Assembly: GCF_001894805.1 (NCBI RefSeq)
Contig: NZ_BCWX01000002.1
Location: 1,240,001 to 1,304,000, forward strand
Length of the DNA stretch: 64,000 bases
Direction: 5' to 3'
Origin: Rhodococcus globerulus NBRC 14531
Lineage (GTDB): Bacteria; Actinomycetota; Actinomycetes; Mycobacteriales; Mycobacteriaceae
Both the position numbers and the translations under genes were made by a program. Positions 12,662 through 34,982 of the stretch are shown here, piece after piece (positions within the stretch are counted from its first letter, which is position 1; every line of letters begins with the position of its first letter). The notes beneath the pieces were generated by a model. It worked only from the letters and a program-made list of their open reading frames with translations. It had not been told where the DNA came from and did no database searches.

Positions 12662-12727
12662 AAATTGTACACAATCTACGACATTCAATCGATAATCTGC
12701 CCGGAACTCGCCATTCCTGCATACAAA
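12662..12727. promoter_or_regulatory. Paired operator block between CoA-transferase and GntR genes
   Basis: AAATTGTACACAATC (12662-12676) contains the palindrome ATTGTACACAAT and the TACAAT -10 of the CoA-transferase on the minus strand. A second element, CTGCATACAAA, lies at 12717-12727. Both elements recur with the same 55-base offset at 34917-34982. The TTGT-N2-ACAA core fits the usual GntR/FCD operator form; that the adjacent GntR binds it is inference. Confidence 0.65.
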
Positions 12728-12790
12728 AATCGTATTGTCGACGGGATAGGCTTTGCTGTGCATCAACCCCACATACAACGAAGAGGCACC

Positions 12791-13564
12791 GTGGCAACCA
12801 CACCGCAGGCACCGGGTCAGGCCGCCTACTCTCAAATCCGCCAGGCAATCGTCGAAGGACGCTACAAGCCCGGCCAGCGCCTGATCGAACAGCGGATCGC
12901 CGAGCAGTTCTCGCTGTCCCGCACACCTGTCCGCGAGGCACTTCGCAGACTCGAAGCCGAAGGGCTTGTGCTCAGCGAGCCAAACCGGGGAGCCATCGTG
13001 CGAACCCTGTCGATGGAAGATGTGTCTGACTTGTACGGACTTCGCGCCCGCCTCGAGGCATACGCCGCTGAATTGGCGGCCGAGCGCATCGACCCTGCCA
13101 CTCAGAAGATTCTCGACGCGGGCATCGAGGATTTTGCACTCGCACTGACACTCACTTCGGTCGACGCCGTTGAACGGGTTCGGGCGGTGGATACGGCAAA
13201 CAGCCAAATCCACCGGGCCATCATGGCCGCGGCAAAGCATGAGCGGCTAAGCCGCCTGCTTGAACGAACCACTGACGTTCCGTTGGTTTTTCAGGCGTTC
13301 CGCCAATACGATCGCGCCCAGACCGAGCGGTCACATTTGTTCCATCAGCTCATACGCGACGCGATTGTCGCCGGCGATGGCCCCCGGGCGTCCGCCTTGA
13401 TGCACGAACACGTCCTCCAGGGGCGCGACGTACTTCTCGCCCACCTCGCAGCAACCAGTAGTGACGAGGTGGACGAGCTGTTCGGCGTCTCAGCCTGGGA
13501 AACCGCCGGCCCGGGCGAGCTGGCCGGGAACCTGAGCGCCGAGTACCCCGCCGAGCCAGTCTGA
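12791..13564 (+). CDS. GntR-family regulator (FCD subfamily)
   Basis: A 257-residue repressor. N-terminal winged helix: AYSQIRQAIVEGRYKPGQRL, IAEQFSLSRTPVREALRRLE, AEGLVLSEPNRGAIV. The C-terminal all-helical FCD domain (LYGLRARLEAYAAELAA; IHRAIMAAAKHERL; HEHVLQGRDVLLAHL) usually binds a carboxylate ligand with a metal. GTG at 12791 with AAGAGG upstream is preferred; GTG at 12758 is possible. Its 3' end overlaps the convergent HMG-CoA-lyase-like gene by 75 bases. Related operator sites precede the CoA-transferase, lyase and ligase genes, so it probably controls that island. Confidence 0.92.
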   Translation: MATTPQAPGQAAYSQIRQAIVEGRYKPGQRLIEQRIAEQFSLSRTPVREALRRLEAEGLVLSEPNRGAIVRTLSMEDVSDLYGLRARLEAYAAELAAERIDPATQKILDAGIEDFALALTLTSVDAVERVRAVDTANSQIHRAIMAAAKHERLSRLLERTTDVPLVFQAFRQYDRAQTERSHLFHQLIRDAIVAGDGPRASALMHEHVLQGRDVLLAHLAATSSDEVDELFGVSAWETAGPGELAGNLSAEYPAEPV

Positions 13565-14374
13565 CGCCTCGATCAACTCGGGCAGCAGAGCGCCCGTGGC
13601 AATACCACTGCGATCGAGGAGATAAACCAGATCCTCGGTCGCAATGTTGCCGGTGGCGTCCGGCGCGAAGGGGCATCCGCCAATCCCGCCGATCGAGGAA
13701 TCCAGCACCGTCACCCCCGAGTCGATAGCTGCGACAGCGTTGGCATATCCGGTGTTGCGAGTGTTGTGAAAATGGGCGCGCAACCGAATTCCGCGCGCGA
13801 TCGCCGCGGTCTCTGCAAACAGTCGGGCGACTTGGGCGGGTACACCCACCCCGATCGTGTCGGCCAACGCGATCTCGTCCACTCCCAAGTCAGCCATCTG
13901 CTCGACCAGGGCAAGAACTGCAGATTCGGAAACTTCACCCTCGAACGGACAACCGAATGCGGTTGCGATGGTGACCGATACCCCAACACCGGCGATGCGG
14001 GCATCGTCGACAAGATCGCGCACAATATGCACCGAGTCCGCGACCGACATTCGTTGATTGCGCTCACTGAAAGTCTCCGACGCCACCACGACGCAGTTCA
14101 CCTCGTTCACGCCCGCAGCCACGGCACGATCAAAGCCACGGCGATTGAGTACAAGGCCGCTGTACGAGACATCGGCACGACGCGGCACTCCTGCCATGAC
14201 AGCCTCCGCGTCGGCCATCTGCGGTATAGCAGCCGGATGCACAAAGCTGGTGGCCTCGATGCGCCGCAGACCGGAAGCGATGGCGCGCTCGATCAGCGCA
14301 ATCTTGTCCGCAGTCGAAACGTGCACGGCCTCGTTCTGCAGCCCGTCGCGCGGGCTCACCTCCACGATCTCCAC
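13490..14374 (-). CDS. Hydroxymethylglutaryl-CoA lyase-like enzyme
   Basis: TIM-barrel aldol-cleavage enzyme of the HMG-CoA lyase family (294 residues, normal length). Key blocks: EVSPRDGLQNE at the start (metal-binding Asp), ATSFVHPAAIPQMAD, ALADTIGVGVPAQV, RAHFHNTRNTGYANAVAAID (metal His pair) and the catalytic-Cys loop GGIGGCPFAPDATGN. All are intact, so a metal-dependent lyase acting on a 3-hydroxy-3-methyl-acyl-CoA is expected; paired with a class III CoA-transferase the substrate may differ from HMG-CoA. GTG at 14374 (AAAGGG upstream) gives the family start; the frame extends to 14452 without support. Convergent with gntR; preceded by a TTGTATACAA site. Confidence 0.92.
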   Translation of the reverse strand: MEIVEVSPRDGLQNEAVHVSTADKIALIERAIASGLRRIEATSFVHPAAIPQMADAEAVMAGVPRRADVSYSGLVLNRRGFDRAVAAGVNEVNCVVVASETFSERNQRMSVADSVHIVRDLVDDARIAGVGVSVTIATAFGCPFEGEVSESAVLALVEQMADLGVDEIALADTIGVGVPAQVARLFAETAAIARGIRLRAHFHNTRNTGYANAVAAIDSGVTVLDSSIGGIGGCPFAPDATGNIATEDLVYLLDRSGIATGALLPELIEASDWLGGVLGAQVPGQLARAGGFPG

Positions 14375-14430
14375 GGCAAATCCCTTTCGTCTGAACACTG
14401 CTCGGCAAAAATCTGCACCGACCCCGATTA

Positions 14431-14440
14431 TTGTATACAA
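14431..14440. promoter_or_regulatory. GntR-type palindrome before the HMG-CoA-lyase-like gene
   Basis: TTGTATACAA is a perfect 10-base palindrome 57 bases upstream of the lyase start, of the same TTGT-N2-ACAA form as the site at 12662. Confidence 0.5.
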
Positions 14441-14671
14441 ACAAGTGTCCACGACCGCGAGGTAACGGATCGGGACCTGACCGGAACGTCATCCACAAGC
14501 AATCCGTCGTGGCTGACAGTCGCGGCAATGCACTTGCGCGGCTATGTCTTTTCAAGTGTCGGACCTCGGGAATCATCGCTCAAGTCGCCCCTCGCTCAAC
14601 TTGTCGACTATCGGACAGCTTGATTCGACCGCATGGTGCACATACTTGTGATCTGTGGCACTCTTGAGTTA

Positions 14672-14686
14672 GATTGTGTGCAATTC
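14672..14686. promoter_or_regulatory. GntR-type site before the acyl-CoA ligase
   Basis: GATTGTGTGCAATTC matches the reverse complement of the 12662 site at 13 of 15 positions and lies 36 bases before the ligase ATG, where it would overlap the promoter. Confidence 0.5.
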
Positions 14687-14721
14687 CTGGCCGCTTGGCC
14701 TCGTTTCGACTGGAGCCCCAC

Positions 14722-16257
14722 ATGCTGTACAGCGATCTTCTACGGCGGAACGCCGCTCGCTTTCCCCACAAGACTGCACTCGCGATGGATGACGGATCCG
14801 ATAGCCGGACCTATGGCGAGCTCCACCAGCGCGCCCTGCGCCTGGCGAACGGTTTGAGCGGCCTCGCAGCCCCTGGCGATCGAGTTGCGCTGCTGTCCGA
14901 AAACAATCTCGAGTACATCGAGGCCTACTACGGCGTCCCGACTGCAGGCATGGTCCTGACTCTGCTCAACTACCGCCTGCACCCAAAAGAGTGGGTCTGG
15001 ATCCTCAACGACTCCGGGGCCCGTGTGCTGATGGTGGAGTCGAAGTATCTCGAGGTAATTGCCGACTATCGATCCGAGCTCACGAGCGTCGAGCACATTA
15101 TCGTGATCGGCGCCCCCGCCACAGGCTTCACGGCCTACGAGAACGTCCTCCGGTCCGCGTCGACCATTGCCCCGCAATTGCAGATCAGCGAAGACGACGA
15201 TGCGTGGATCCTGTACACAAGTGGAACAACGGGTAAGCCCAAGGGGGCCCGGCTGAGCCATCGCAACCTCAACACCGCGTTGATCCAGTCGGCGATCGAA
15301 TACGACCCGAAGCCCGAAACCTGCTTCCTCAACGCCATGCCCCTGTGCCACATCGCGGGCTACCTGACCCCGCTGCACCAGTTCCGTGGCGGCTCGGTGG
15401 TGATGATGTCGGGCTGGGACCCGGAGCGATGGATGCAGTTGGTGCAGGACAACCGCGTCACCAGTGGCGGATTCGCTCCGACCATGATGCAAATGCTGCT
15501 CACACACCCGAAGATCAACGACTACGACCTGAGCAGCCTGGAGTGGATGGGTTACGGGGCGTCGAAGATCCCGGCAGATGTGTTGCGCCAGACCATCGAC
15601 CGGTTCGGGCCCGTCGTCTACGCGGGCATGGGCATGACAGAACTCGGCGGCAATATGCTCACGCTCGACAAGGCTGCACACATCAGGGCAGCTCATGGGG
15701 AAGAGCACCTGCTCGATGCCGTCGGCAAGCCGATGTCCCTCGTCGATGTCCGTGTCGTCGATCCACTCGGAAACGACTGCCCCACAGGCACGATCGGTGA
15801 GATCGTCGTCAAGGGCGACCAGGTAACCAGGGGCTACTTCGGTAATCCCGAGGCGAACGCGCAGACATTCGAGGGCGGCTGGTTCCACACCGGCGACCTC
15901 GCCCGTCAGGACGACGAGGGGTTCCTCTACATCGTCGATCGAGCCAAGGACATGATCATCTCCGGCGGTGAGAACGTGTACTCGAGCGAGGTCGAGAACG
16001 CGATCTACACCAACCCCGATGTGCTCGGGGCCGCGGTCATCGGAACTCCCGACGACAAGTGGGGCGAAGTTGTCACTGCCGTCGTTGTCCGCAAGCCCGG
16101 CACCACGCTGACCGAAGACGACGTAGTCAGCAGCTGCCGCTCGCAACTCGCTGCATTCAAGCAGCCCCGCAAGGTCATCTTCATCGACGAAATGCCGCAA
16201 ACCGTCAGCGGCAAGATCCGCAAGAACGTCCTGCGCGATCAGTTCGCATCCAACTGA
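14722..16257 (+). CDS. AMP-dependent acyl-CoA synthetase/ligase
   Basis: Activates a carboxylic acid to its CoA thioester via an acyl-adenylate. The 511-residue protein has the P-loop ILYTSGTTGKPKGARLSHRN, the A5 motif AGMGMTELGG, the hinge and A8 block IVDRAKDMIISGGENVYSSE and the A10 lysine motif QTVSGKIRKNVLRD. This is the medium/long-chain or aromatic FadD-like type. ATG at 14722 with GGAG upstream is preferred over an earlier in-frame ATG at 14674 that would lie on the operator. Operon with the SMP-30 gene 56 bases downstream. Substrate not readable. Confidence 0.93.
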   Translation: MLYSDLLRRNAARFPHKTALAMDDGSDSRTYGELHQRALRLANGLSGLAAPGDRVALLSENNLEYIEAYYGVPTAGMVLTLLNYRLHPKEWVWILNDSGARVLMVESKYLEVIADYRSELTSVEHIIVIGAPATGFTAYENVLRSASTIAPQLQISEDDDAWILYTSGTTGKPKGARLSHRNLNTALIQSAIEYDPKPETCFLNAMPLCHIAGYLTPLHQFRGGSVVMMSGWDPERWMQLVQDNRVTSGGFAPTMMQMLLTHPKINDYDLSSLEWMGYGASKIPADVLRQTIDRFGPVVYAGMGMTELGGNMLTLDKAAHIRAAHGEEHLLDAVGKPMSLVDVRVVDPLGNDCPTGTIGEIVVKGDQVTRGYFGNPEANAQTFEGGWFHTGDLARQDDEGFLYIVDRAKDMIISGGENVYSSEVENAIYTNPDVLGAAVIGTPDDKWGEVVTAVVVRKPGTTLTEDDVVSSCRSQLAAFKQPRKVIFIDEMPQTVSGKIRKNVLRDQFASN

Positions 16258-16313
16258 CGCCAACACGCCAGCAGTACAACAACTCCCGCAATACACGAAC
16301 CGAGGAGCACCCG

Positions 16314-17252
16314 ATGTCTTTCACAGTTGTCACCACCGGACTGAAATTTCCGGAGGGCCCGGTTGCACTGCCGAACGGCGACGCACTAGTCGTCGAGATT
16401 CACCGCGGAACACTCACACGAGTAACCCCGGACGGCACCAACACTGTGGTCGCGGAGGTCGGCGGCGGCCCCAACGGCACCGCTATCGGCCCAGACGGCC
16501 GCGCATACATCGCCAACTGCGGAGGGATGATCGCCACAGAGGCGTACGGATACGTCTTCGCCGGCGGCACCCCCGAGAACTACACCGGCGGCAGCATTCA
16601 AGCTGTCGATCTCGAAACCGGCGAGATCGAGACCCTGTACACCGAGTGCGACGGCATCCCGCTCCGTGGTCCCAACGACATCGTCTTCGACGCGCACGGT
16701 GGCTTCTACTTCACGGACCACGGCAAGAGCAACGACCGAGGCAACGATCACGGCCGCCTCTTCTACGGCACGAGCGACGGTTCGTCGATCCGCCTCGTTG
16801 CTTCAGAAATGCATGGCCCCAACGGAATCGGCCTCTCCCCCGACGGCACACGCCTCTACGTCAGTGAGACGTTCACCGCGCGGGTCTGGTGGTGGGACGT
16901 TACCGCTCCCGGCGAGATCGTCGGTGGCCGTACGCTCGCCGGCTCTGGCGGGGGCAACTTCCTCTGGGGATCACCCGACTTCCGTTACTTCGACTCACTG
17001 GGCGTCGAAGCCAACGGCAACATTTGCGTCGCATCGCTGGCTACGCCCGGCATTTGTGTGATCAGTCCGGACGGCGAGTTGATCGAGTTCCTCAGCATCG
17101 ACACCGACGGCGACCCGGGCATCACCAACATCTGCTGGGGCGGTGACGACATGCGCACGGCATTCGTCACCGCGTCGAGTACCGGAAAACTGCTCCGATT
17201 CGACTGGCCCCGAGCTGGTCTGGTTCTCAACAACCAGGCTTCACTGGTCTGA
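16314..17252 (+). CDS. SMP-30/gluconolactonase/LRE-family protein
   Basis: Six-bladed beta-propeller hydrolase, probably a lactonase, of 312 residues. N-terminal FPEGPVALPNGDALVVEIHR carries the metal-binding Glu; GPNDIVFDAHGGFYFTDHG, MHGPNGIGLSPDGTRLYVSE and DSLGVEANGNICVA carry the conserved Asn and Asp ligands. ATG at 16314 has GAGGAG ten bases upstream. In this context it would open a cyclic ester intermediate made in the CoA-thioester island; that is inference. It is followed immediately by a convergent small gene. Confidence 0.9.
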   Translation: MSFTVVTTGLKFPEGPVALPNGDALVVEIHRGTLTRVTPDGTNTVVAEVGGGPNGTAIGPDGRAYIANCGGMIATEAYGYVFAGGTPENYTGGSIQAVDLETGEIETLYTECDGIPLRGPNDIVFDAHGGFYFTDHGKSNDRGNDHGRLFYGTSDGSSIRLVASEMHGPNGIGLSPDGTRLYVSETFTARVWWWDVTAPGEIVGGRTLAGSGGGNFLWGSPDFRYFDSLGVEANGNICVASLATPGICVISPDGELIEFLSIDTDGDPGITNICWGGDDMRTAFVTASSTGKLLRFDWPRAGLVLNNQASLV

Positions 17253-17263
17253 CGGTCGCACCG

Positions 17264-17629
17264 TCACCACCAATCGCGGCGGCGACGAGGCGTGGAGATG
17301 TCGTCGAATGCGGCGGCGTCTCCGATCCGCCAACGCCGCAGATCAGCCGAGATTCGAGATGCCGCGTTGCGCCGTTCCCGCTGGAGATCATTTCGGCGGC
17401 CGGCACTGTCGTAGCAGAGTGAACAGGAGCAGATCCGGATTCCGGTGTATGCGAATGTCCAATAGCAAGTGCCCGGCGACCGCGGCGACCAATCGGATGA
17501 AGGGGTAGGCGGCAGATCGCAGATTCCATCGCGGTGATCGTGGGCGGGTTCGACACCCAACTCACGGCGAGTGATGCGAACCCACAGCGGTGCGTGTGAA
17601 TCAGTTCGGGACAAGGCAGCGCCTTTCAC
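17264..17629 (-). CDS. Hypothetical small Cys/His-rich protein
   Basis: A 121-residue frame that starts with GTG and converges on the SMP-30 gene 11 bases away. It has features suggesting a real protein: HAPLWVRITRRELGVEPAHD and HRDGICDLPP, then a Cys-rich core (CYWTFAYTGIRICSCSLCYD) and an Arg-rich tail. The CDLP, ICSC and LC cysteines with HDH could bind a metal. Codon use is GC-rich and even. I recall similar short actinobacterial proteins with a HAPLW...HDHR...CDLP layout, but cannot confirm it. No ribosome site is obvious. Function unknown. Confidence 0.45.
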   Translation of the reverse strand: MKGAALSRTDSHAPLWVRITRRELGVEPAHDHRDGICDLPPTPSSDWSPRSPGTCYWTFAYTGIRICSCSLCYDSAGRRNDLQRERRNAASRISADLRRWRIGDAAAFDDISTPRRRRDWW

Positions 17630-17822
17630 GTTCGTGCGCCCCGACCGCTACCCCCGGATGAGGACGGATCGGGGCGACGGTTGGTGCTCCGCGCCCACCG
17701 CCCGCCGTACCATGCACGCTCGCCTGAATTGAGTCATGTCACCGATCTTGTCATAGCCCCCCGACAGCCGCGGTCTCAGTAGAACTCGGTGTGCAGGACC
17801 TCGATGTGTGCCCGAACCACGG

Positions 17823-17854
17823 AAGACCTGCGGTCGAATATGACCGCAGGTCTT
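17823..17854 (-). terminator. Terminator of the racemase-like gene
   Basis: Perfect 13-bp stem (AAGACCTGCGGTC with its complement), 6-base loop, about 100 bases after the leftward stop at 17956. The 17630-17955 gap otherwise shows no supported gene. Confidence 0.65.
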
Positions 17855-17955
17855 TGGCGTCGTCGGGATTGTCTAGTTCGTATGGGATGGAAGTCGGTGC
17901 GGGCAATTCGCCTGGGTCCGCTGCGAGGAGAGCCGCGTCGAATTCGGGTTCCGCC

Positions 17956-18813: not shown

Positions 18814-18885
18814 CTGACGCTCCTTGATTCATGGGTGATGTGAGGCACTACCGGCGACTCGTGTGACGAGGCTATCAGAAAGCAT

Positions 18886-18900
18886 TTCTACTGTGAAGAA
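18886..18900. promoter_or_regulatory. Degenerate TTCTG-N5-CAGAA-type site
   Basis: TTCTACTGTGAAGAA, 73 bases upstream of the racemase-like gene, has TTCT/AGAA arms in the same 15-base layout as the sites at 20813 and 43573 but differs at the inner arm base. Confidence 0.3.
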
Positions 18901-18958
18901 TAGACTCCGACATTCCAGAACAGCGAAAAAGATTGCGTAACAGACAGATACAACAAAG

Positions 18959-18989: not shown

Positions 18990-19001
18990 TTTCAACAGCG
19001 T

Positions 19002-22579: not shown

Positions 22580-23149
22580 ATGACAAATACAGAATTTGAA
22601 CTCGGCGGCGTATGTCACTTGGCGCTGGTGTGCCAGGACATGGAGCGCACCGTCGACTTTTACACCAACGTCCTGGGCATGAAGCTGTCCATGACGCTCT
22701 CCCTGCCTGGTGGTGGCCAGCACTTCTTCTTCGACATGGGCGGCGGCCAGTTCATCGCGTTCTTCTGGTTCGCCGATGCCGCCCCCCACGCTCCCGGCAT
22801 CGCGGCGCCCGCGGCCATTCCCGGCATCGGCAAGGAAATCGCGTCGGCGCACGGCTCGATGAATCACGTCTCGTTCAAGATCCCGCTCGACAAGTTCGAC
22901 GAGTACAAGGCCAAGCTCGAAGCAAAGGGCGTCCAGACCGGACCGATGCTCAACCACGACATGTCCGAGCGTGGGATCAGTTTCGGAGAGAGCGACTCGA
23001 CCTTCGTGCGGTCGATCTATTTCTTCGACCCGGACGGGATCTTGCTCGAATTCGCGGCCTGGACTCGCGAATTGCGCGAGGACGACGTCAAGCACGCGCC
23101 CCGGACCGCCGACGGCGGCCTCGGCACCCCGGTTGGCGCCGCCAAATGA
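22580..23149 (+). CDS. VOC-family protein
   Basis: A 189-residue glyoxalase/extradiol-dioxygenase-fold protein with two modules: VCHLALVCQDMERTVDFYTN with LGMKLSMTLSL, and MNHVSFKIPLDKFDEYKAKL with SIYFFDPDGILLEFAAWTRE. His in CHLAL, His in MNHVSF and Glu in LLEFAAW are the expected metal ligands. Close paralogue of the protein at 7931. ATG at 22580 is chosen; an upstream in-frame start at 22517 lies inside the promoter. Its stop overlaps the start of the next SnoaL gene (ATGA), so the two are coupled. Confidence 0.88.
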   Translation: MTNTEFELGGVCHLALVCQDMERTVDFYTNVLGMKLSMTLSLPGGGQHFFFDMGGGQFIAFFWFADAAPHAPGIAAPAAIPGIGKEIASAHGSMNHVSFKIPLDKFDEYKAKLEAKGVQTGPMLNHDMSERGISFGESDSTFVRSIYFFDPDGILLEFAAWTRELREDDVKHAPRTADGGLGTPVGAAK

Positions 23150-23514: not shown

Positions 23515-23520
23515 AAAGAA

Positions 23521-25467: not shown

Positions 25468-25592
25468 CATGATCACAAGAAATAGCCCCGCCGATCGATT
25501 GGATCGGCGGGGCTGCACTCCTTGGTCTACCTTGCTGCGCAGGAAGATTCGCTCCGTGCAGTGATCACAGGAAGAACGCTGCAACCTCGTCT
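25468..25592. repeat. Diverged direct repeat, copy 2 (intact iclR 3' end)
   Basis: Partner of 23521-23645. Here the block is in its natural place: last codons of iclR, intergenic spacer and terminator. The two copies bracket the orphan substrate-binding gene. Confidence 0.6.
25485..25515 (-). terminator. Terminator of the liv/IclR operon
   Basis: Stem AGCCCCGCCGATC (25485-25497) with complement 25503-25515, 5-base loop; 50 bases beyond the iclR stop, and also downstream of the convergent substrate-binding gene. Confidence 0.75.
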
Positions 25593-26344
25593 ACTGCTTG
25601 GGCCAGGGCGGCGGCGATCTCTTCACGGGTCACGTCGGACATCCGGCTCTTGGGCGTGGACACGTTCAACGTGTAGCGCGCCCCGCCGTACTCGCCGAGC
25701 GAGACCGACACCGACGTAACTTCATCCTCGGACTCTTCGTTGCTAGTGGCAAACCCGACCCGGCGGACCTCCGCGAGTTGGCGCAGAAGCGCCGACCGCT
25801 TGGTAATCGAGTGTGACGTAAGGCCCTTCAGCTTCTCATCGGGGTACAGCTCGCGCACCGCACGGTCATCGAGCGTAGCGAGCAGCGCTTTGCCGGACGA
25901 TGTGCAGTGCGCCGGCATGGTCATCCCCATGCGGGACCCCACGCGCACCGCTCGCGCACTCTCGACCGAGTCCACAAAGGTCACCGTGTTCCCGTCGAGG
26001 CGGGCCAGATGGACCGTCTCACCCAGGCTGGCCGAAAGCCGTTCGAGCACTGGATGTACACGGGCCCTGACGTCTGTTTGGCGCAGGACCGCGAACGCGA
26101 TCGTCGTCAGGGCGGGGCCCGGTTCGTAAGCCCGTGAACCCTCGACCTGACGGACGAATCCGCGGTACTGAAGCATCGCCAGCAGTCGGTGCGCGGTCGA
26201 CGAGGCAACCGAAAGGTACTCGCTCACCTCGGTCAGCCGGATACTGCGACGCTCGCCCAGCAGCAGCAGGATTCGCAGGGCGTTGTCGACAGACTCGATC
26301 GGGTACTGCGGTCGGTTCGCAGTTGTATCTTCCTTTGCGGTCAC
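25565..26344 (-). CDS. IclR-family transcriptional regulator
   Basis: A 259-residue regulator. N-terminal winged helix: SVDNALRILLLLGERRSIRL, VSEYLSVASSTAHRLLAMLQ, YRGFVRQVEGSRAYEPG. C-terminal effector (GAF-like) domain: RLSASLGETVHLARLDGNTV, GMTMPAHCTSSGKALLATL, VSVSLGEYGGARYTLNVS. GTG at 26344 overlaps the ligase stop (GTGA); the upstream extension is out of family and rejected. Last gene of the leftward transport/catabolic operon, so likely the pathway-specific regulator; IclR proteins of aromatic pathways often activate in response to the pathway acid (family knowledge). Confidence 0.93.
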   Translation of the reverse strand: MTAKEDTTANRPQYPIESVDNALRILLLLGERRSIRLTEVSEYLSVASSTAHRLLAMLQYRGFVRQVEGSRAYEPGPALTTIAFAVLRQTDVRARVHPVLERLSASLGETVHLARLDGNTVTFVDSVESARAVRVGSRMGMTMPAHCTSSGKALLATLDDRAVRELYPDEKLKGLTSHSITKRSALLRQLAEVRRVGFATSNEESEDEVTSVSVSLGEYGGARYTLNVSTPKSRMSDVTREEIAAALAQAVDEVAAFFL

Positions 26345-27924
26345 GCAGGTAGCGTAACGGCAGGAGCGCGCAGAACATTCTTGGTGACCTTGCCGGACGC
26401 GTTTCGCGGCAGCATATCGACCAGCACGAGGCTGGTCGGAAGCTTGTAGCGCGCCAACCTCTCCCCTGCCCAGGCGCGCAGCGACTCGATGGTCAACTCC
26501 GCCGCACCCGGTTTCAGTGCGACCACCGCGACCGGGGTCTCGCCCCATGTTTCGTGAACCTGGCCGATCACTGCAACCTCGGCGATGCCCGGGTGACCGG
26601 CCAGCGCATTCTCTACCTCGGCGCAATATATGTTCTCGCCGCCGGAGATGATCATGTCCTTCGCACGATCTACGACGTAGATGAAGCCCTCGGCGTCCTT
26701 GCGTACCAGGTCACCGGAGTGAAACCAGCCTCCGGCGAAGGCCTGCGCCGTTGCCTCCGGGTTGTTCCAGTACTCGGTCATCAGTCCCGGCCCACGGTAG
26801 ACGATCTCGCCGACCTCACCGGGTTGCACATCCACCATGTTTTCGTCGACTATGCGTGCCCAGACACCGGGTACCGGGCGTCCGACGGAACCCAACTTAC
26901 GGCGAGAATCCTTGGCCTCGAGCACACACGTCACCGGGGACATCTCGGTCTGCCCGAACAGCGCAATGCTCGACGCACCGGGAAGCACCTCGCTCATCTT
27001 GCGAAGCAGCGAATCGGTGGCAGGCGCTGCGCCCCAGGAACTGACGCGAAGCCGAGACAGATCGCGCGGCGACCGCTCCTGCTCGTCGCAGACCGCCTGC
27101 CACTGAGTCGGTACGAGGAATGTCGAAGTGACCTGCTCGCATTCGACGACGTCGAGGAGTGCCCCCGCGTTGAACGAGACACTCGGAAGGACAACCATGG
27201 TGGCGCCCATCAGAATCGCCGGCGCCACCAGGCCAAGAGTCCCGATGTGGAACAGCGGTGCGGCGCACAGGCTTACCTCGTCGTACATCTCGAACCGGAA
27301 CGCCATCACGTTCGTGGCCGACTGCGCCGCCAAGTTGCGATGCGTCAGCACGGCGCCCTTGGGCCGTCCGGTGGTTCCCGACGTGTACATGAGCAGCGCT
27401 GGTTCGCACTCGTCGATCGTCGCGACCAGTCCGCCCGAACCGGAATGTGCGAGGAGAACGTCGTAGGCCGATGCGCCGTCAGAGCCCTCGCTGCCGACCT
27501 GGAAGACCTGAACCGGACCCGCGGCCTGCGCGACCGCAGCGATCCCGGTGGCGCTTGCCTGCTCGTCCACGAAAAGAACGACGGCTCCGCTGTTGTCGAG
27601 CGTGAACGCCACCTCGCCGACGCTCAGCCGGAAGTTGATCGGCACGGCGATAGCGCCGATCCGGTTGGCGGCGATCATGATCTCGATGTACTCGGCCTGG
27701 TTGCCCATCAGCAAAGCAACGCGGTCCCCGTGCGCCACGCCGCGCTCGGCGAGGGCGGCGGAGACGGAATCCACTCGCTGCTGAAGATCTGCCCAGGTAA
27801 TCCGGCGGTCGCCGAAGACGACGGCCGTCTGTTCACCGCGCTCAAATGCATGCCGCGCGACCTGACTGACCCAGTGCTGCTGGCGGGCACGCGTCAGGTC
27901 ATCCATGTCCACGCTCGTATTCAC
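26341..27924 (-). CDS. AMP-dependent acyl/aryl-CoA ligase
   Basis: Forms a CoA thioester from a carboxylate, 527 residues. Motifs: ALLMYTSGTTGRPKGAVLTH, IALFGQTEMSPVTC, YVVDRAKDMIISGGENIYCA and the A10 lysine block LPRNASGKVTKNVLR. GTG at 27924 overlaps the hydrolase stop (GTGA); ATG at 27906 is an alternative. Together with the upstream hydrolase it fits ester cleavage followed by CoA activation of the released acid (inference). Substrate not readable. Confidence 0.92.
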   Translation of the reverse strand: MNTSVDMDDLTRARQQHWVSQVARHAFERGEQTAVVFGDRRITWADLQQRVDSVSAALAERGVAHGDRVALLMGNQAEYIEIMIAANRIGAIAVPINFRLSVGEVAFTLDNSGAVVLFVDEQASATGIAAVAQAAGPVQVFQVGSEGSDGASAYDVLLAHSGSGGLVATIDECEPALLMYTSGTTGRPKGAVLTHRNLAAQSATNVMAFRFEMYDEVSLCAAPLFHIGTLGLVAPAILMGATMVVLPSVSFNAGALLDVVECEQVTSTFLVPTQWQAVCDEQERSPRDLSRLRVSSWGAAPATDSLLRKMSEVLPGASSIALFGQTEMSPVTCVLEAKDSRRKLGSVGRPVPGVWARIVDENMVDVQPGEVGEIVYRGPGLMTEYWNNPEATAQAFAGGWFHSGDLVRKDAEGFIYVVDRAKDMIISGGENIYCAEVENALAGHPGIAEVAVIGQVHETWGETPVAVVALKPGAAELTIESLRAWAGERLARYKLPTSLVLVDMLPRNASGKVTKNVLRAPAVTLPA

Positions 27925-29063
27925 CACTGCGCCTTGGGGAAACGGTCCGCAATCCACTCGCACATCACATCGGCAACGGCGGCGCGGGCCCCGGGCTCCT
28001 GGAAATAGTGATCACCGGGCAGGTCCTTGCGCGACTTGTCCTCGCTCGCGAGGGCATTGAACAGCGCGTCCGCGTCGCTCGGGAACACACCCGAGTCCCC
28101 GTCAGGGTTGATGACAAGCGAAGGCACCGTGATTTTCTCCATGTGCATTTCCGCACGGCACTGCGATTCTTCGAGACTCCACATGTGTAGCCAATTCCGC
28201 AGCGTGCTCCCGGCACCGATGCCGCGGTCCTCGCGGTTGGCTACCGAAGTCGGGCCGCGGTAGCACTCGCCTGCCGGCCGACTGCTGGGCTCGAGCGTCG
28301 CGTCCACCATCCGGGGGTCAGCCCACGTACGCGGGACTCCGAAGTGCCGGTCGTTGTAACCCGCGGCGGTAATCCGAGCCAGCTCTTCCTGCGCCCATGC
28401 GGTGATCCGGTGGTTGCGGGCAACCTGCGCAGCGCGGTACCGCTCGATGAATTCCGCGGAGTACGGCGGACCGTTCTCGGGGTTGAACAGATCAAGTTCG
28501 GGGTCGGTCAGAGTCGGGTCGTTTTCGTCGACGACTGCTGCGTCCAGCCACGCGGTCAGCACGTCGGGCCGACCGCCGTGCGCGGCGAGGGAGATGTAGG
28601 CAGCTCCGGGGATGAGGTCGTTAATTCCGACTGCGGGTTCCATGTCGCGGGCGGGACGGATGCACGGCGAGGTCGCTTGCGCCTGGTAGGCCGCCATCAG
28701 CGAGCCGCCTCCGGAATTGCCGAGCAGGATAACCTGATCCACACCTGCGTGCTCCTCGAGCCAGCGCACACCCACACCGATGTCGACCAAAGCCTGGTCG
28801 AGATTGAACAGCTCCTCGTAACCGCGGTAGCGAGTATTCCAACCCAGGAATCCAATACCTCGCGCAGCCATGAACTCGGCGATGTAATGCTCCGAGAAAT
28901 CAATCTGGTAATGCGTAGCGATCATTGCGATGCGCGGCTTCTTACCGGCCGGCGTGTAGTAAATGCCCTGACACGGGTAGCCGCCGGCACCCGCGCGCTT
29001 AGCGCCTGGTGACTCGCTGCTGACAAATTCCTTGTGGACGGTCGGGCTGGTGGTGCCGGTCAT
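27921..29063 (-). CDS. Alpha/beta hydrolase
   Basis: A 380-residue serine hydrolase-like protein. The nucleophile elbow ILLGNSGGGSLMAAYQAQ (GxSxG) is clear; PSLVINPDGDSGVFPSDADA and GDHYFQEPG supply the expected late Asp and His. ATHYQIDFSEHYIAEFMAAR and FLGWNTRYRG precede the elbow as in large cap-bearing esterases. No signal peptide. Role inferred: hydrolysis of an ester or a C-C bond in the imported compound. Next gene overlaps by 4 bases. Confidence 0.88.
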   Translation of the reverse strand: MTGTTSPTVHKEFVSSESPGAKRAGAGGYPCQGIYYTPAGKKPRIAMIATHYQIDFSEHYIAEFMAARGIGFLGWNTRYRGYEELFNLDQALVDIGVGVRWLEEHAGVDQVILLGNSGGGSLMAAYQAQATSPCIRPARDMEPAVGINDLIPGAAYISLAAHGGRPDVLTAWLDAAVVDENDPTLTDPELDLFNPENGPPYSAEFIERYRAAQVARNHRITAWAQEELARITAAGYNDRHFGVPRTWADPRMVDATLEPSSRPAGECYRGPTSVANREDRGIGAGSTLRNWLHMWSLEESQCRAEMHMEKITVPSLVINPDGDSGVFPSDADALFNALASEDKSRKDLPGDHYFQEPGARAAVADVMCEWIADRFPKAQW

Positions 29064-29065
29064 GG

Positions 29066-29641
29066 TTAGACAACCTCGTATTCGTTGAGACTTGCGTATT
29101 TCTTCAGGTGCGTGAACATCAACTCGACCCGCTCGAGGACGATGGGATCCGTCAATCTGCCTTGCTCGTCAAAGTGATTGGGGGCAAAGCTGAGGAGAAT
29201 CTCCGGCCCGGGCAACACTGGGGACCGGGAGAAGACGAAGGTGTGACGCAGTTCGAATTGGCTGCGCGCTGTGCCGAGGCGGCCAGGCGTCGCGCCCATC
29301 AGCGCCACCGGCTTACGCTCGAGCACCGAGCGTCCGAGTGGAAGTGAGAGCCAGTCGAGTGCGTTCTTCAGAACACCAGGGATGCCGCCGTTGTATTCGG
29401 GTGTCGCGATGAGCAGGGCATCAGCGGCTTCGACCTCGGCGCGCAGAGCATGGACGCTGTTCGCCTCGTTACCGAAATCGTCTTCGTTGAGCATCGGGAT
29501 CTCGCCCAGCAGCTTCGTGATCCGCACCTCGACGTCGACCGGCGCCATTGCCGCCGTCGCCTCGAGAAGTTTGCGATTCCACGAGTCTGCGCGGAGACTG
29601 CCTGCAATCGCGCAGATTACAAATTTTCCGTCTTTCATCAT
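29066..29641 (-). CDS. NADPH-dependent FMN reductase-family protein
   Basis: A 191-residue flavodoxin-fold quinone or FMN reductase. GSLRADSWNRKLL is the FMN phosphate loop, and ATPEYNGGIPGVLKNALDWL is the family signature. It may supply reduced flavin to a monooxygenase or reduce a quinone intermediate. Starts ATGATG at 29641, overlapping the LivG stop; ends two bases before the hydrolase start. No flavin monooxygenase is found in this operon, so the partner is unknown. Confidence 0.9.
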   Translation of the reverse strand: MMKDGKFVICAIAGSLRADSWNRKLLEATAAMAPVDVEVRITKLLGEIPMLNEDDFGNEANSVHALRAEVEAADALLIATPEYNGGIPGVLKNALDWLSLPLGRSVLERKPVALMGATPGRLGTARSQFELRHTFVFSRSPVLPGPEILLSFAPNHFDEQGRLTDPIVLERVELMFTHLKKYASLNEYEVV

Positions 29642-30414
29642 GCAGCTCCCAGATAGGCCGCGACGACAGCGTCGTCGCGGATAACGTCGGCGGGCTTGCC
29701 GAGGGCGATTCGTTGACCGAAGTTGAGAACACAGACGCGGTTCGAGATGCCCATGACCATCTTCATGTCGTGCTCGACGAGCAAAATGGCAACGCCGAGA
29801 TCTCGGTTCACCTGCACAATGGTCTCCGTCATCTCGGCGGACTCGTCGTGATTCATGCCGGCGACGGGCTCGTCGAGCATGATCAGCCGCGGTTCCATCG
29901 CTAGTGCCCGCGCCAACTCGATTCGCTTCTGCGTGCCGTGCGGTAGTGATCCGACAGGGGTGTCTGCCAGGTGCTCGATGTTCATCAGCGCAGCGACCTC
30001 GCGAACCTTTTCCACCGCGGCCTTCTCCTCCCGCGCTGCGCGGCCCAGCCACAGCATGTTCTCCAAGGCTCCCGCGCGCATCGCGTTGTGCCGCGAAAGC
30101 AAGAGGTTGTCCAGCACCGTCATCGCGGGAAAGACCTCCACGTTCTGGAAGGTCCGGGCGATGCCCTTTTTCGCGATCTTGTGAGCCGGCAAGCCCAGGA
30201 TTTCGGCTCCCGCGAAGCGCACGGAACCGGACTGTGGTGCGTAGACACCGGAGATGCAGTTGAACAGCGAGGACTTGCCCGCACCGTTCGGGCCGATGAC
30301 GGAGAACAGCTCGCCCTCAGCGATCGAAAAGCTCACGCCGTCAATGGCTTTTACCCCGGCGAAGCTCAGGGCCAGATCGTTGATCTCCAACAGATCGGCA
30401 CGCGGATCAGACAT
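29638..30414 (-). CDS. Branched-chain amino acid-type ABC transporter ATPase (LivG-like)
   Basis: Cytoplasmic ATPase of a HAAT-family importer, 258 residues. Walker A GPNGAGKSSLFNCISG, the signature region LPHGTQKRIELARALA, Walker B LIMLDEPVAGMNHDESAE and the switch His in LLVEHDMKMVMG are intact. The long variable region before the signature is typical of LivG. Overlaps LivF by 8 bases. In this operon the cargo is probably an aromatic or alicyclic acid, not an amino acid (inference from neighbours). Confidence 0.93.
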   Translation of the reverse strand: MSDPRADLLEINDLALSFAGVKAIDGVSFSIAEGELFSVIGPNGAGKSSLFNCISGVYAPQSGSVRFAGAEILGLPAHKIAKKGIARTFQNVEVFPAMTVLDNLLLSRHNAMRAGALENMLWLGRAAREEKAAVEKVREVAALMNIEHLADTPVGSLPHGTQKRIELARALAMEPRLIMLDEPVAGMNHDESAEMTETIVQVNRDLGVAILLVEHDMKMVMGISNRVCVLNFGQRIALGKPADVIRDDAVVAAYLGAA

Positions 30415-31210
30415 GCTGGATCACCCCTTCGGTATCGATTCCCGTGGCCTGTGCCGGCGGCTCAGCTGCGCCCACTGCCGAAGCACCCAGGTACAGCTCT
30501 GCGATTTCTGCGTCGCCGCGCAGGTCCTCCGCCTTGCCCTCCTTGACGACGCGGCCACCTTCGAGGACATATCCGTACTGCGCAATTGCCATTGCCATGG
30601 CCGCGTTCTGTTCCACCAACAGGATGGATGTCCCTTCCTTGTTGATGTCGACGATCACGTCTCGGACATCAGCAACGATTTTCGGTGCCAGGCCGAGGCT
30701 CGGCTCGTCGAGAAGAAGCACCTTCGGCTGGGACATCATCGCCCGACCGATCGCGAGCATCTGCTGCTCTCCGCCCGAGAGGTAACCGGCTTTGCGCTGC
30801 ATCAGGTCACCCAGACGCGGGAAGTGGTGCAGCACCCGCTCACGCGCTTCGAGTTCCTGGGCCTTGCGATAGCGACGGACAAAAGCGCCGCTCGCGAGAT
30901 TCTCGGCAACGGTGAGTCCAGGGAACACCTGCCGACCCTCGAGGGCCTGCGCGAGGCCGAGTTTCACGCGCTTCGACGAGCGCTCGTTGGTGACGTCGTT
31001 GCCCAGCAGTTCGACCCTGCCCGAGGCAACGGTGCCGCCGTGCACGCCGAGCAGACCCGACACCGCCCGCATCAGCGTCGACTTGCCCGCACCGTTCGGC
31101 CCGAGGAGGCTGACGATCTGGCCTTGGGGAACCGTCAGGCTCACGTCCTCGAGCGCCAGCGAGGCTGCGCCGTAGCGGACACTGAGGCTGTCGATGACCA
31201 GCGAGTTCAT
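30407..31210 (-). CDS. Branched-chain amino acid-type ABC transporter ATPase (LivF-like)
   Basis: Second ATPase of the importer, 267 residues. Walker A LLGPNGAGKSTLMRAVSGLL, signature YLSGGEQQMLAIGRAMM, Walker B KVLLLDEPSLGLAPKIV, and LLVEQNAAMAMAIAQYGYVL are intact and characteristic of LivF. Starts 4 bases inside the end of the LivM gene. Forms a heterodimer with the LivG-like protein. Confidence 0.93.
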   Translation of the reverse strand: MNSLVIDSLSVRYGAASLALEDVSLTVPQGQIVSLLGPNGAGKSTLMRAVSGLLGVHGGTVASGRVELLGNDVTNERSSKRVKLGLAQALEGRQVFPGLTVAENLASGAFVRRYRKAQELEARERVLHHFPRLGDLMQRKAGYLSGGEQQMLAIGRAMMSQPKVLLLDEPSLGLAPKIVADVRDVIVDINKEGTSILLVEQNAAMAMAIAQYGYVLEGGRVVKEGKAEDLRGDAEIAELYLGASAVGAAEPPAQATGIDTEGVIQHV

Positions 31211-32331
31211 TTGCTACCTCCGGAGATTCGGGCTCGGATCCAGTCGATGGGCCGCTTGAAGAGCGCGAGCAATCCTTTGGGCTCGAAGATGAGGACCAGC
31301 ACGATCACAAGGCCGTACAAGAACTGTGAGAGCAGAGGCGCGGTAACGCCGCCGTCGGCGCTCGCGTCCTTCGAGACAAACGGAAGGTACGGCGACAGCA
31401 CATTCACCATCTCAGGCATCGCCTTGATGAAGAATGCGCCGAGGATCGCGCCCGCGACCGTGCCCATACCACCGATGACAACCATCGCGATGAAGTCGAC
31501 GGAGACCATCATCGTCCACTGACTCGGCGTGAAGTAGCCCATGTAGGACACGAGCAGCGCACCGGAGACACCGGCGAACGCCGAAGAGATGACAAAGGCC
31601 ACGACCTTGGTTCTGGTCACAGGTATGCCGGCAACGCCCGCCGCGATGTCCCGGTCACGGACCGCCATGAAGGCGCGACCTAGGCGCGAACGCTTGAGGT
31701 TCCACGTCAGCACAGTGACGATGAGCAGCACTGCCAGGGCGAAATACCACCACGCCTGGAACGAGGTCAGGATCTCCTCGCCTCCCGACGACCAGTAGCC
31801 GTCCAGCAGGTCTTGCCCGTTGATCTCCACCGCAGGGGCCGTCCGACCATTGACTCCGCCGCTCAGGCTGGTCCAGGTTTCCCAGACATAGGTGCCGATG
31901 AAAATCAGGGCCAACGTCGCAACCGCCAGGTAGAGCCCGCGGATTCGGACTGCCGCCGGAGCGACCACCCCACCGGCGAGTCCGGCAACTACAGCGGCTG
32001 CGGGCAACCACACCCAGACTGGGAGTCCCTCGTCGACTCCGAGCCAGGCCGAGGTGTAAGCGCCGATCGCCATGAATACCGCGTGGCCCATCGAGATCTG
32101 ACCGGCAAATCCGGTGATGACCTGCATGCCGAGTGCGCCGACCGCCGCGATCAGCGCAAAGATTCCCACGCCCATCCAGAGATCGGACTGCACCACCCAC
32201 GGCACAACGAGCATCGCCACTACCCACACGGCAACCCACACCCGCGTGCTTCGCTTCTTGGTCCGCACGACTTCGGAGGGAACACCTGCGGTGTCGTCGT
32301 CGATGGGTGCGGGTTCGAGAGTTGTTGTCAT
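31207..32331 (-). CDS. Branched-chain amino acid-type ABC transporter permease (LivM-like)
   Basis: Inner-membrane permease of 374 residues. After a hydrophilic N-terminus (about 30 residues) there are multiple membrane segments; GFAGQISMGHAVFMAIGAYT and VFISSAFAGVSGALLVSYMG-type blocks, GGMGTVAGAILGAFFIKAMP and FEPKGLLALF near the end match LivM. Lies 3 bases after the LivH gene. Confidence 0.92.
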   Translation of the reverse strand: MTTTLEPAPIDDDTAGVPSEVVRTKKRSTRVWVAVWVVAMLVVPWVVQSDLWMGVGIFALIAAVGALGMQVITGFAGQISMGHAVFMAIGAYTSAWLGVDEGLPVWVWLPAAAVVAGLAGGVVAPAAVRIRGLYLAVATLALIFIGTYVWETWTSLSGGVNGRTAPAVEINGQDLLDGYWSSGGEEILTSFQAWWYFALAVLLIVTVLTWNLKRSRLGRAFMAVRDRDIAAGVAGIPVTRTKVVAFVISSAFAGVSGALLVSYMGYFTPSQWTMMVSVDFIAMVVIGGMGTVAGAILGAFFIKAMPEMVNVLSPYLPFVSKDASADGGVTAPLLSQFLYGLVIVLVLIFEPKGLLALFKRPIDWIRARISGGSK

Positions 32332-32334
32332 CGG

Positions 32335-33216
32335 TCAGACCCTTTCAATGCTTTTACTGCCGAAGAGTCCGTAGGGCCGGACCACCAGCACGGCAAACAT
32401 GACGATGTAGGGCAAGACCTCATGGAGTCGGCCGCCCCCGATGTCCGACAGGTAGTAAGAACCCATCACCTGAATCAGTCCGACGATCAGGCCGCCGACA
32501 ATCGCACCTACCAGCGAGTCCATTCCGCCGATCACGATCGCGGGAATAGCAAGCAGCGCAACGATACCCAATGCCGGAGACACAACCCGAGGGAACGACG
32601 CCAAGAAGACACCGGCCACCACGGCAAGGAACGCCGCAAGTCCCCACGAGAGTGCGAACATCCGTCGCACATCGATTCCCTGCGCCAGTGCCGCTTCCTG
32701 GTGACTGGCGGTCGCACGAAGCGCCAGACCGTACGGTGTCTTCTGGAAAAAATAGGCCAGCCCCGCGAGAACCACCACGGAGGTGCCGATTGTCGCAATG
32801 CCACTCCACGGCAGCACTACCGAGCCGACAGTCACCGTGCCTGAACCGACAGGACCGGCCGAGCCATGTGTGCCGACGCCCCAGATCATCAAGATCGCCT
32901 GGTGAAGCATGATCGAGATACCCAGCGTCGCGAGAACCACGGTGGTAACAGATTTTCCGACCATGCGGCGCAAGAAGACCGCCTCGATCAGGACCGCGAG
33001 AACCACCATGATGACGACCGCGAAGAGGAACGCCAGCCCCCAGGGCATGAAGGCCATCAAGGCCAGCACCGTGTAGGCGCCTAGCGCCACGATCTCTCCG
33101 TGGGCAAAGTTGAATGTGTGTGAGCCCTTGTACATGATCACGAACCCGAGGGCGATCAGTCCGTAGACCATTCCTAGGGCTATCCCCTGGAAGCCGAGCT
33201 GCAAGAAGAGCGCCAT
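32335..33216 (-). CDS. Branched-chain amino acid-type ABC transporter permease (LivH-like)
   Basis: Inner-membrane permease of 293 residues with about eight hydrophobic segments. GMVYGLIALGFVIMYKGSHT, FNFAHGEIVALGAYT, GLALRATASHQEAALAQGID (cytoplasmic coupling loop) and GGMDSLVGAIVGGLIVGL are the LivH signature. ATG at 33216 with GGGG upstream is preferred over the longer frame to 33267. Second gene of the operon, 93 bases after the binding-protein gene. Confidence 0.92.
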   Translation of the reverse strand: MALFLQLGFQGIALGMVYGLIALGFVIMYKGSHTFNFAHGEIVALGAYTVLALMAFMPWGLAFLFAVVIMVVLAVLIEAVFLRRMVGKSVTTVVLATLGISIMLHQAILMIWGVGTHGSAGPVGSGTVTVGSVVLPWSGIATIGTSVVVLAGLAYFFQKTPYGLALRATASHQEAALAQGIDVRRMFALSWGLAAFLAVVAGVFLASFPRVVSPALGIVALLAIPAIVIGGMDSLVGAIVGGLIVGLIQVMGSYYLSDIGGGRLHEVLPYIVMFAVLVVRPYGLFGSKSIERV

Positions 33217-33309
33217 AGCCCCTTCTACTCCTTTAGTCGAACAATAATTGTCCTGATGCGCCGCCAAGGCGCCCGCCGCCGTCCTGTAACGGGCGCCGAA
33301 GTGCGTCGA

Positions 33310-34557
33310 TCAGAAACCGTTTGCCTCGCCCCAGGCGCGAGCCTGATCGGTCTCGGCCCAGTCAGTGGTGGGGATCAGCAGACCCTCGGCATTTACGGTG
33401 TTCATCCGGCTCTGGTAGCTGACGATCGAGTCGCCGGTACCGAGGTTGACTGTCGGCAGGATGCCACCGAAGTCGATGTCGAGATCCTGCATCGCGGCCA
33501 GAACACCTTCACGGGTGAGATCCTTGTTCGCGCAGGCCTTTTCCAGCACCGCCGCGGTGGCAGTGCCGCTCAACCAACCGGCAACCTGGAAGTTGCTCGG
33601 CTTCTCGTTCGGCGCGTACTGCGCCAGAGCGGCATTCATGTCCTTGATGCCCTGAACGTCATCGTTCAGCGCTCCGTAGCTCGCCGAAACGTAGAAGTTG
33701 TCGGTCAAGCCGGCCAGCGGCTTTGCCAGCGCGGCGTTCCAGGCGCCCGAGTAACCGATCCACTGCGGCGAATAACCGAGCTGGGCGGACTGTCCCACCA
33801 GCCCCGCGGTCTGGGCCATGGTGTTGGCCAGGATCACGACCGTGGCGCCGGAGTTCTTCAACTCGGTGGCCTGAGCGGTGAAGTCGTTGTCAGCGGGGCT
33901 GTACGTCGGGCTGGCGACGACCTCGACGCCGGGGATCTGTTCCGCGGCAAACTTGACGGAGTCTGCGTATCCCGTGCCGTACTCGTCCGCCGGTGCGACG
34001 ACGGCGACCTTGAGCGGGTTGGTAGCGCTTGCACCCGCCTTCTGCGCGGCCCAGACCAGGCCGTTGATCAGCTCGACCTCGAAGGGCGGGGTGTAGATCG
34101 CGACATCCTCGAGCTTGAGCGCTGCTGTGTTGAGCGATGCCGAGAAGGTCGGCAGGTCGTCTTTCGCGATGCTGTCCTTGACCGCCATCAGCGAGGACGT
34201 GCCGATCAGCTGCGGGATCATCACAACCTTGTTCGCGATGGCGCGATACTGCTGGGTGGTGACCTGAGGGTCGTATTTGGTGTCCATCTTGTGCAGGACG
34301 AGTTGACGCCCGCAGATCCCGCCCGCGGCGTTGACCTGGTCCAGCTTGATTTCCAAGCCGATCGAACCCGAGGTTGCGGGCTGGGCAAGTGGCCCGGAGT
34401 AGTCGGTGAGGATCGCAAGATTGATCTCGCTGTCGCTGACGCCCTTTCCGGTCTTGACCCCATCCGCACTTGCGGAGTCTCCACTGGCCGACCCGCCGCA
34501 AGCAGTCAACGTGAGCATTGTGGCGATTGCGAGGGCTGGAGCAGCTTTCCTCAACAT
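33310..34557 (-). CDS. Branched-chain amino acid-type ABC substrate-binding lipoprotein (LivK-like)
   Basis: Periplasmic/cell-envelope receptor of 415 residues. ATG at 34557 (GAAGGG upstream) gives a lipoprotein signal MLRKAAPALAIATMLTLTAC with the lipobox Cys; the longer frame to 34632 has no signal and is rejected. The Peripla_BP_6 pattern is clear: SEINLAILTDYSGPLAQPAT, GGICGRQLVLHKMDTKYDPQ, VAVVAPADEYGTGYADSVKF, NDFTAQATELKNSGATVVIL. First gene of a nine-gene leftward operon ending with iclR; an operator-like site lies at 34651. Confidence 0.93.
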   Translation of the reverse strand: MLRKAAPALAIATMLTLTACGGSASGDSASADGVKTGKGVSDSEINLAILTDYSGPLAQPATSGSIGLEIKLDQVNAAGGICGRQLVLHKMDTKYDPQVTTQQYRAIANKVVMIPQLIGTSSLMAVKDSIAKDDLPTFSASLNTAALKLEDVAIYTPPFEVELINGLVWAAQKAGASATNPLKVAVVAPADEYGTGYADSVKFAAEQIPGVEVVASPTYSPADNDFTAQATELKNSGATVVILANTMAQTAGLVGQSAQLGYSPQWIGYSGAWNAALAKPLAGLTDNFYVSASYGALNDDVQGIKDMNAALAQYAPNEKPSNFQVAGWLSGTATAAVLEKACANKDLTREGVLAAMQDLDIDFGGILPTVNLGTGDSIVSYQSRMNTVNAEGLLIPTTDWAETDQARAWGEANGF

Positions 34558-34639
34558 CTTCAGTACGTCCCTTCGGGGTTGTGACCTGACCCACATTGAA
34601 ACTGTGGTCCTGAGCATTGAACAGGCATACATGGCGTCG

Positions 34640-34665
34640 AGTCAAGGGCAATCTATCGATCGCTA
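34640..34665 (-). promoter_or_regulatory. Operator/promoter element of the liv operon
   Basis: On the minus strand TAGCGATCGATAGAT (34665-34651) is identical to the element at 22485-22499. TTGACT (34645-34640) follows five bases later; a good -10 is not evident. Confidence 0.5.
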
Positions 34666-34916
34666 AGCCAGAAACGCAATCTCTTAAGCTGCGCTAATAG
34701 TAGAAACTTTCTCTCTGCAGAGACATGTTCTGCCGAACACGCAGGTACGGCACGCGGAATGAACGAGGTCGGACCGGCGCCGAAGCCGAGCCAGTTTCGG
34801 CGATTGACGAGAAAAAATACCCGAGGTGACGTCCGTCCAATCGCCCGCGAGGCCCATGAAACAGGCCATGCATCGACCAAGACCATAACGAGGTACATCC
34901 AGGCCTCCGCTCGGTC

Positions 34917-34982
34917 AAATTGTACACAATCAGCCGAAATTTCTCGATACTGATTGCAATAATTCGCTTTTCTGCATACAAA
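34917..34982. promoter_or_regulatory. Copy of the GntR-type paired operator block
   Basis: AAATTGTACACAATC (34917-34931) is identical to 12662-12676, and CTGCATACAAA (34972-34982) to 12717-12727, both 55 bases apart. The middle shares only TCGATA and scattered bases. No gene starts close to it; the nearest is the liv operon 360 bases to the left. Confidence 0.6.

Follow-up and report, generated by a model that had tools for sequence, protein, structure and literature searches.

Repressors of the GntR family with an FCD domain provide the closest described counterparts of the system considered here. Atu1419 of Agrobacterium fabrum (PDB 6z74) is a tetrameric repressor of the FCD/VanR group that represses catabolic genes as well as its own gene, and, in the parts of its published description that deal with operators (PMC7797058), it binds ATGTATACAT sites, which lie over the -10 box at two targets, with looping proposed over 190 base pairs (bp). 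A survey of the FadR subfamily (PMC4494728), in its sections on divergons, sorts double-site divergons containing a transcription factor (TF) gene into two classes: constant-distance pairs, which it reads as cooperative (29/100), and independent sites (71/100). Its control divergons belong to the independent class only (FadR n = 46), and those sections report no constant-distance pairs in a setting free of a regulator gene. They also place MdcY, the malonate regulator, in a FadR-subfamily group with a 2-nucleotide (nt) gap between GT and AC. Here, we analyze a 64,000-nt stretch of the Rhodococcus globerulus NBRC 14531 genome (contig NZ_BCWX01000002.1, positions 1,240,001 to 1,304,000; hereafter, the window) in which a pair of predicted operators, E1 and E2, occurs twice at one fixed spacing: beside a gene for an FCD-type GntR regulator and, 22 kilobases (kb) away, upstream of a liv-type transporter operon. 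We regard it as a further, well-conserved instance of a kind already known.

The first block sits between caiB, a leftward gene for a family III coenzyme A (CoA)-transferase (11443–12657, minus strand; Pfam PF02515), and the rightward gntR (12791–13564, plus strand; Pfam GntR and FCD), with lyase, ligase, and SMP-30-like genes beyond. On the caiB side lies E1, the 15-mer AAATTGTACACAATC at 12662–12676, which encloses the palindrome TTGTACACAA (12665–12674); on the gntR side lies E2, the 11-mer CTGCATACAAA at 12717–12727, which encloses the asymmetric palindrome CTGCATACAA (12717–12726). Both predicted operators, to which no strand is assigned, recur upstream of liv, E1 at 34917–34931 and E2 at 34972–34982. 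Their centers are 52 bp apart, i.e., about five helical turns, and their starts 55 bases apart. The original prediction, read from the letters of the window, had these positions, the identity of the letters, and the 55-base start spacing exactly right, along with two variants of the site at 14431 and 14672. When the two loci are compared, E1 is identical at 15/15 positions and E2 at 11/11, as against 16/40 for the bases between them, and the 100-base flanks match at 21/100 and 22/100. By their letters, E1 and E2 both look like GntR/FCD operators, with the 2-nt gap between GT and AC of the MdcY group, although no gene annotated here is called malonate decarboxylase.

The pair is rare by several measures. 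The E1 15-mer has two copies in its own genome (6,733,699 bases), both inside the window, and a window-derived composite pattern of E1 and E2 with a free gap of 25–50 matches these two loci only. Paired exact 11-mers as seen here appeared in none of 60 simulated windows (first-order Markov), the criterion being two distinct exact 11-mers that share a diagonal, lie within 100 bp of each other, and enclose DNA below 60% identity; by the same criterion, the real window contains the E1/E2 pair and matches between ~8.1–8.4 kb and 22.7–23.0 kb. The latter two stretches (8084–8400 and 22724–23050) share many 11-mers on nearly one diagonal and have the appearance of a longer repeat that has diverged. 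Once mismatches are allowed, the elements taken singly stand out less than the pair: with three or fewer, E1 has four matches against 0.51 expected, and 1/100 shuffles attained four.

In different species, E1 and E2 accompany the regulator gene and the liv-A gene, holding the same position and the same 52-bp spacing. Two partly overlapping samples were searched, 301 genomes of the family and 397 of the order. GntR matches at E ≤ 1e-50 occur in 9/301 family genomes, with at least 76% identity in eight of them; the ninth, G296 (52% identity), lacks the block and was left out of the orthologue count. A composite pattern, drawn up after viewing eight gntR and three liv upstream regions, matched in the same 8/301 genomes that carry the close gntR orthologue, giving 11 blocks (eight at caiB–gntR and three upstream of liv) and no reversed-pattern control matches. 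In the order sample, the block is found in 1/397 genomes, the window's own. The centers are 52 bp apart in 11/11 blocks, and the 10-mers are identical throughout, except for one base of E1 in G046 and two bases of E2 in G130. E2 lies 62–64 from gntR in seven of the eight orthologues and 79 in G171; the inter-site distance stays constant and does not grow with intergenic length, which varies over a small range at the gntR loci. The liv binding protein is found at E ≤ 1e-80 in 4/301 genomes, and the block stands upstream of liv-A in 3/3 genomes carrying it, the only ones among those searched. A scan of related genomes for the paired sites, suggested with the original prediction, finds both elements at every orthologous locus (8/8 for gntR and 3/3 for liv-A), and the suggestion that the second block possibly serves the liv operon agrees with its position in all three of the latter genomes. 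More distantly, at locus L025, where the GntR homologue is 47% identical by tblastn and 55% in the alignment, one related site lies by caiB.

What the spacers say about origin has to be separated from what they say about selection. Spacer identity is 8–21/38 in all block pairs save G021–G015 at gntR (34). Across the liv orthologues of the three Rhodococcus genomes, E1 and E2 are each conserved at 10/10 positions while the spacers between them have fallen to 15–18/38, which argues that the two elements are under selection, in line with the claim that they are selected binding sites. The accompanying claim, that the block is not a copied segment, does not hold: within the same three genomes, caiB–gntR and liv spacers agree at 14–21/38, and orthologous liv spacers do no better, so that a copied block would look just like what is observed. 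Since orthologous spacers drift equally far, unlike spacers are no argument against copying, and spacer divergence was rejected as a proof of independent origin. One rival reading is that the second block is an inert relic of a duplicated caiB–gntR intergenic segment, for which residual spacer similarity between the two loci speaks; we give this idea hardly any credence, as intact sites amid drifted liv spacers in three genomes require selection.

The linked GntR/FCD protein, already named in the original prediction, is the best candidate binder, judging by the co-occurrence of the block and its close orthologue in the same 8/301 genomes. It carries an N-terminal winged helix (PF00392, 71.5 bits) and a C-terminal FCD domain (PF07729, 52 bits), both scoring above the cut-off. 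Among proteins of solved structure, its nearest relative and best PDB sequence match is the distant Atu1419/6z74 (phmmer E 1.7e-19). Five of the seven named DNA-contact residues of Atu1419 are the same in the window protein, with R31, E34, R45, T46, and R49 aligning with R30, E33, R44, T45, and R48. The Atu1419 metal ligands N137, H141, H192, and H214 align with N137, H141, H185, and H207, a putative metal site that is invariant in 5/5 aligned sequences. The VanR group is marked by six helices in the C-terminal domain; on this point, an AlphaFold2 model of the protein has low confidence (mean predicted local distance difference test score of 58.5). The likeness extends to the sites: in the sections of PMC7797058 drawn on here, Atu1419 has a 10-bp palindrome with a TGTATACA core, which is identical in O3, one of the two further predicted operators described below; its palindromes cover -10 boxes, and its divergent promoter contains two sites. 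The two systems differ in the distance between sites, 190 bp for Atu1419 and 52 bp in the window, and in the candidate liv target 22 kb away in the window; Atu1419 is a tetramer, as the present protein may be. The caiB–gntR block likewise fits the constant-distance class of FadR-subfamily divergons as the survey defines it, having a TF gene and a fixed-distance pair; unlike the divergons described there, the same pair here occurs also at a second place with no adjoining TF gene. FadR-subfamily motifs resemble one another (PMC4494728, in its treatment of binding motifs), so a different regulator of the same specificity might bind the sites; this seems to us very unlikely, given that the block and this gntR are found in the same 8/301 genomes and that the block lies within the gene's own promoter region.

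The best reading, and in our judgment a probable one, is that E1 and E2 form a cooperative double operator through which one FCD-type GntR protein (12791–13564) represses its neighboring catabolic genes and the liv transporter. Two GntR dimers, perhaps as a single Atu1419-like tetramer, would bind five turns apart on one face of the DNA. E1 would cover the -10 box of caiB at the first locus and that of liv at the second; E2 would reinforce this occupancy, either by cooperative contact or by forming a small loop, and would in addition touch the gntR promoter at the first locus. With the effector absent, GntR would repress caiB, gntR, the lyase, the ligase, and the liv transporter. An effector, possibly an organic acid or pathway intermediate, would release GntR, and uptake and CoA-dependent breakdown would be switched on together.

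Candidate promoter elements can be read at both loci. A -10-like box, TACAAT, overlaps E1 in 11/11 blocks and is oriented toward caiB or liv; it stands at 12664–12669 (minus strand; read by eye and by block comparison) and at 34919–34924 (minus strand). By eye, it ends 6 nt before the caiB ATG in seven of eight orthologues and 7 nt before it in G130, which suggests that the caiB message is leaderless. A predicted gntR -10 box, TAGGCT, lies at 12747–12752 (plus strand; by eye), 19 nt past E2 in 7/8 orthologues. The same layout could be explained by two independent operators, E1 for the leftward gene and E2 for the rightward one, their fixed spacing being that of a compact divergent promoter. 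At caiB–gntR, E1 overlaps the caiB box, E2 is near the gntR promoter, and gene distances are near-constant; independent sites are also the larger of the two classes in TF-gene divergons (71/100 in PMC4494728), and in G015 an intact Dpp/Opp operon adjoins the liv block at its E2 end. Yet E2 also stands at this spacing in the liv block, which lacks a TAGGCT at the position corresponding to that of gntR; the rightward gene there is distant and, in two of the three genomes, reduced to a remnant or disrupted in frame; and the spacing is 52 in all 11 blocks. We regard independent operators as an unlikely, though not a negligible, explanation.

The second locus raises the question of which gene the block serves. 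The first liv gene, for a liv-type substrate-binding protein, is at 33310–34560 (minus strand; Pfam PF13458; start ATG chosen by us), and the remainder of the presumed operon (26341–33267, minus strand) comprises two permeases, two ATPases, a flavin mononucleotide (FMN) reductase, a hydrolase-like protein, and an acyl-CoA ligase. On the far, E2 side of the block is the remnant of a Dpp/Opp-type ATP-binding cassette (ABC) ATPase gene (35184–35477, plus strand). The corresponding operon is intact in G015 (L015 1502–5322); in G021, the reading frame of its first gene is broken. The block might control this divergent Dpp/Opp-type transporter, with liv a bystander, as the intact G015 operon would allow. 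However, the window and G021 both retain the complete block, although the gene is a remnant in the first and has a broken frame in the second; the TACAAT over E1 points to liv; and the distance from E2 to the rightward Dpp/Opp gene is long and variable, at about 233 bp in the window, 646 bp in G015, and 834 bp in G021. Such a role is improbable. In G015, two tandem genes for liv binding proteins (L015 6348–9292), 87% and 75% identical to that of the window, have the operator block before the first only. The block is absent upstream of this liv-B duplicate and upstream of the homologue in G105, a genome with no GntR match at E ≤ 1e-50. A hint for the link between the regulator and a liv-type system comes from G130, where a liv-type transporter is next downstream of caiB on the same strand at ~270 bp.

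Several observations weigh against a cooperative operator shared by the catabolic genes and liv. The G130 transporter is not a liv-A orthologue, since a search of that genome for the liv-A binding protein gave no match at E ≤ 1e-30. In the window, 357 bp separate the liv block from the liv start codon, and liv appears to have another control layer, because a nearer element persists where the block is absent: CTCT-TGCAGAG at 34711 followed by TTCTGCC-AAC at 34728 (within 34650–34750) is also found upstream of the block-free binding-protein genes, in G015 liv-B and in part in G105. A candidate for its binder is the IclR protein encoded at the end of the liv set (25565–26626). By eye, the window also shows a short open frame in the liv leader; it was discounted, having no counterpart in G021. 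The palindrome of E2 is imperfect. On the protein side, Gly66 of Atu1419 is Asn65 here and His9 falls outside the alignment, and the oligomeric state would be carried over from a distant homologue. Recovery of the eight gntR and three liv regions by the composite pattern is partly by construction, though the absence of the block from the other 293 family genomes is not. Promoter calls are weak: the consensus scan proposed no caiB promoter at the first locus; its liv call (TCGAGA-17-TACAAT, 9/12) is no better than chance, with 0.7 such sites expected in shuffles; and the scan found a rightward TACACA-17-GATAAT at 12668–12696 (9/12; 0.1 expected), whose GATAAT is at that place in 3/8 gntR loci, those of the three Rhodococcus. 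Should this be the promoter of gntR, its -35 region would fall under E1; under either reading of the gntR promoter, the sites lie on or directly beside promoter elements, as would suit repression. Finally, strict single sites (TTGTRYRCAAT) are found in the window's own genome at four places of this system and at five elsewhere.

Such off-system matches number 16 over three genomes (five in the window's own, six in G015, and five in G021), with reversed-pattern controls of 0, 2, and 0, respectively. Among the 12 of the 16 loci that were compared, four from each genome, homology was found only between L055 (G015) and L056 (G021), neither of which matches the four compared loci of the window's own genome. 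L058 lies in no stop-to-stop frame of at least 120 amino acids and the others lie in some frame, a crude overlap that says little on function.

A more specific account of the second block starts from the likeness of its spacer to that of the first. In the three Rhodococcus genomes, caiB–gntR and liv spacers agree at 17.2/38 positions against 9.8 for permuted columns (standard deviation 1.5; 0/20000), and the flanks are at chance (left 10.3/36, permutation fraction 0.26; right 7.3/39, fraction 0.97). This block-limited likeness fits either a module duplicated long ago or promoter elements common to both loci. Rhodococcus gntR spacers exceed those of the other five genomes in likeness to liv by 4.7 columns (bootstrap 1.4 to 7.9), which favors a duplication within Rhodococcus. 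Two comparisons speak against it: the gntR spacers of the other five genomes also resemble liv (12.5 versus 9.3 by chance), and the Rhodococcus gntR–liv likeness exceeds that between gntR loci of different genera by 3.1 columns, an interval (-0.4 to 6.7) that includes zero. Shared promoter elements in the spacer account for at least part of the likeness, and a duplication is not separable from these. We put forward only tentatively that E1, spacer, and E2 make up an evolutionarily mobile, 62-bp, five-turn cassette for a GntR tetramer, duplicated once from caiB–gntR to liv in the Rhodococcus lineage. If so, the duplication would have brought an uptake system under the same repressor, giving cooperative control with no adjoining regulator gene.

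The rest of the first locus adds two candidate single sites. O3 (ATTGTATACAAA, 14430–14441, no strand) is upstream of an HMG-CoA (3-hydroxy-3-methylglutaryl-CoA)-lyase-like gene (13490–14452, minus strand), given here as the longest open reading frame (ORF), with the true start probably further in. O4 (GATTGTGTGCAATTC, 14672–14686, no strand) is upstream of an AMP-binding acyl-CoA ligase (14722–16257, plus strand; Pfam PF00501; frame checked), which is followed by an SMP-30/gluconolactonase-like gene (16314–17252, plus strand). Both are conserved in 8/8 gntR-orthologue genomes; in G171, the ligase is ~5 kb from the lyase and O4 is still beside the ligase. In G171, the aligned stretch of the gntR match is interrupted by a single TAG, at codon 243, and the protein probably ends 14 codons early. 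In the same genome, an extra GATTGTATACAAA site (L070 12177) lies close to the upstream end of an ORF for a short-chain dehydrogenase that adjoins caiB, a possible further member of the regulon. Beyond the second locus lies what appears to be a cluster for phthalate degradation (38283–41340), with genes for a short-chain dehydrogenase, a reductase, and a 3,4-dihydroxyphthalate decarboxylase (NF053537, scoring above the cut-off); the major facilitator superfamily gene at 35913 may encode its transporter. A plasmid search with the 231-bp intergenic region gave no match. In open-access texts, no published use of TTGTATACAA alongside GntR was found, and ATTGTATACAA matched only papers that, judged by their listing, are apparently unrelated.

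For this uncharacterized FCD-type GntR protein, the proposed reading would define a small, testable regulon of five promoters and would link a CoA-transferase/lyase/ligase pathway to a specific liv-type transporter. For the family, two natural copies of one fixed-spacing pair would offer a means of testing whether Atu1419-like proteins need in-phase sites.

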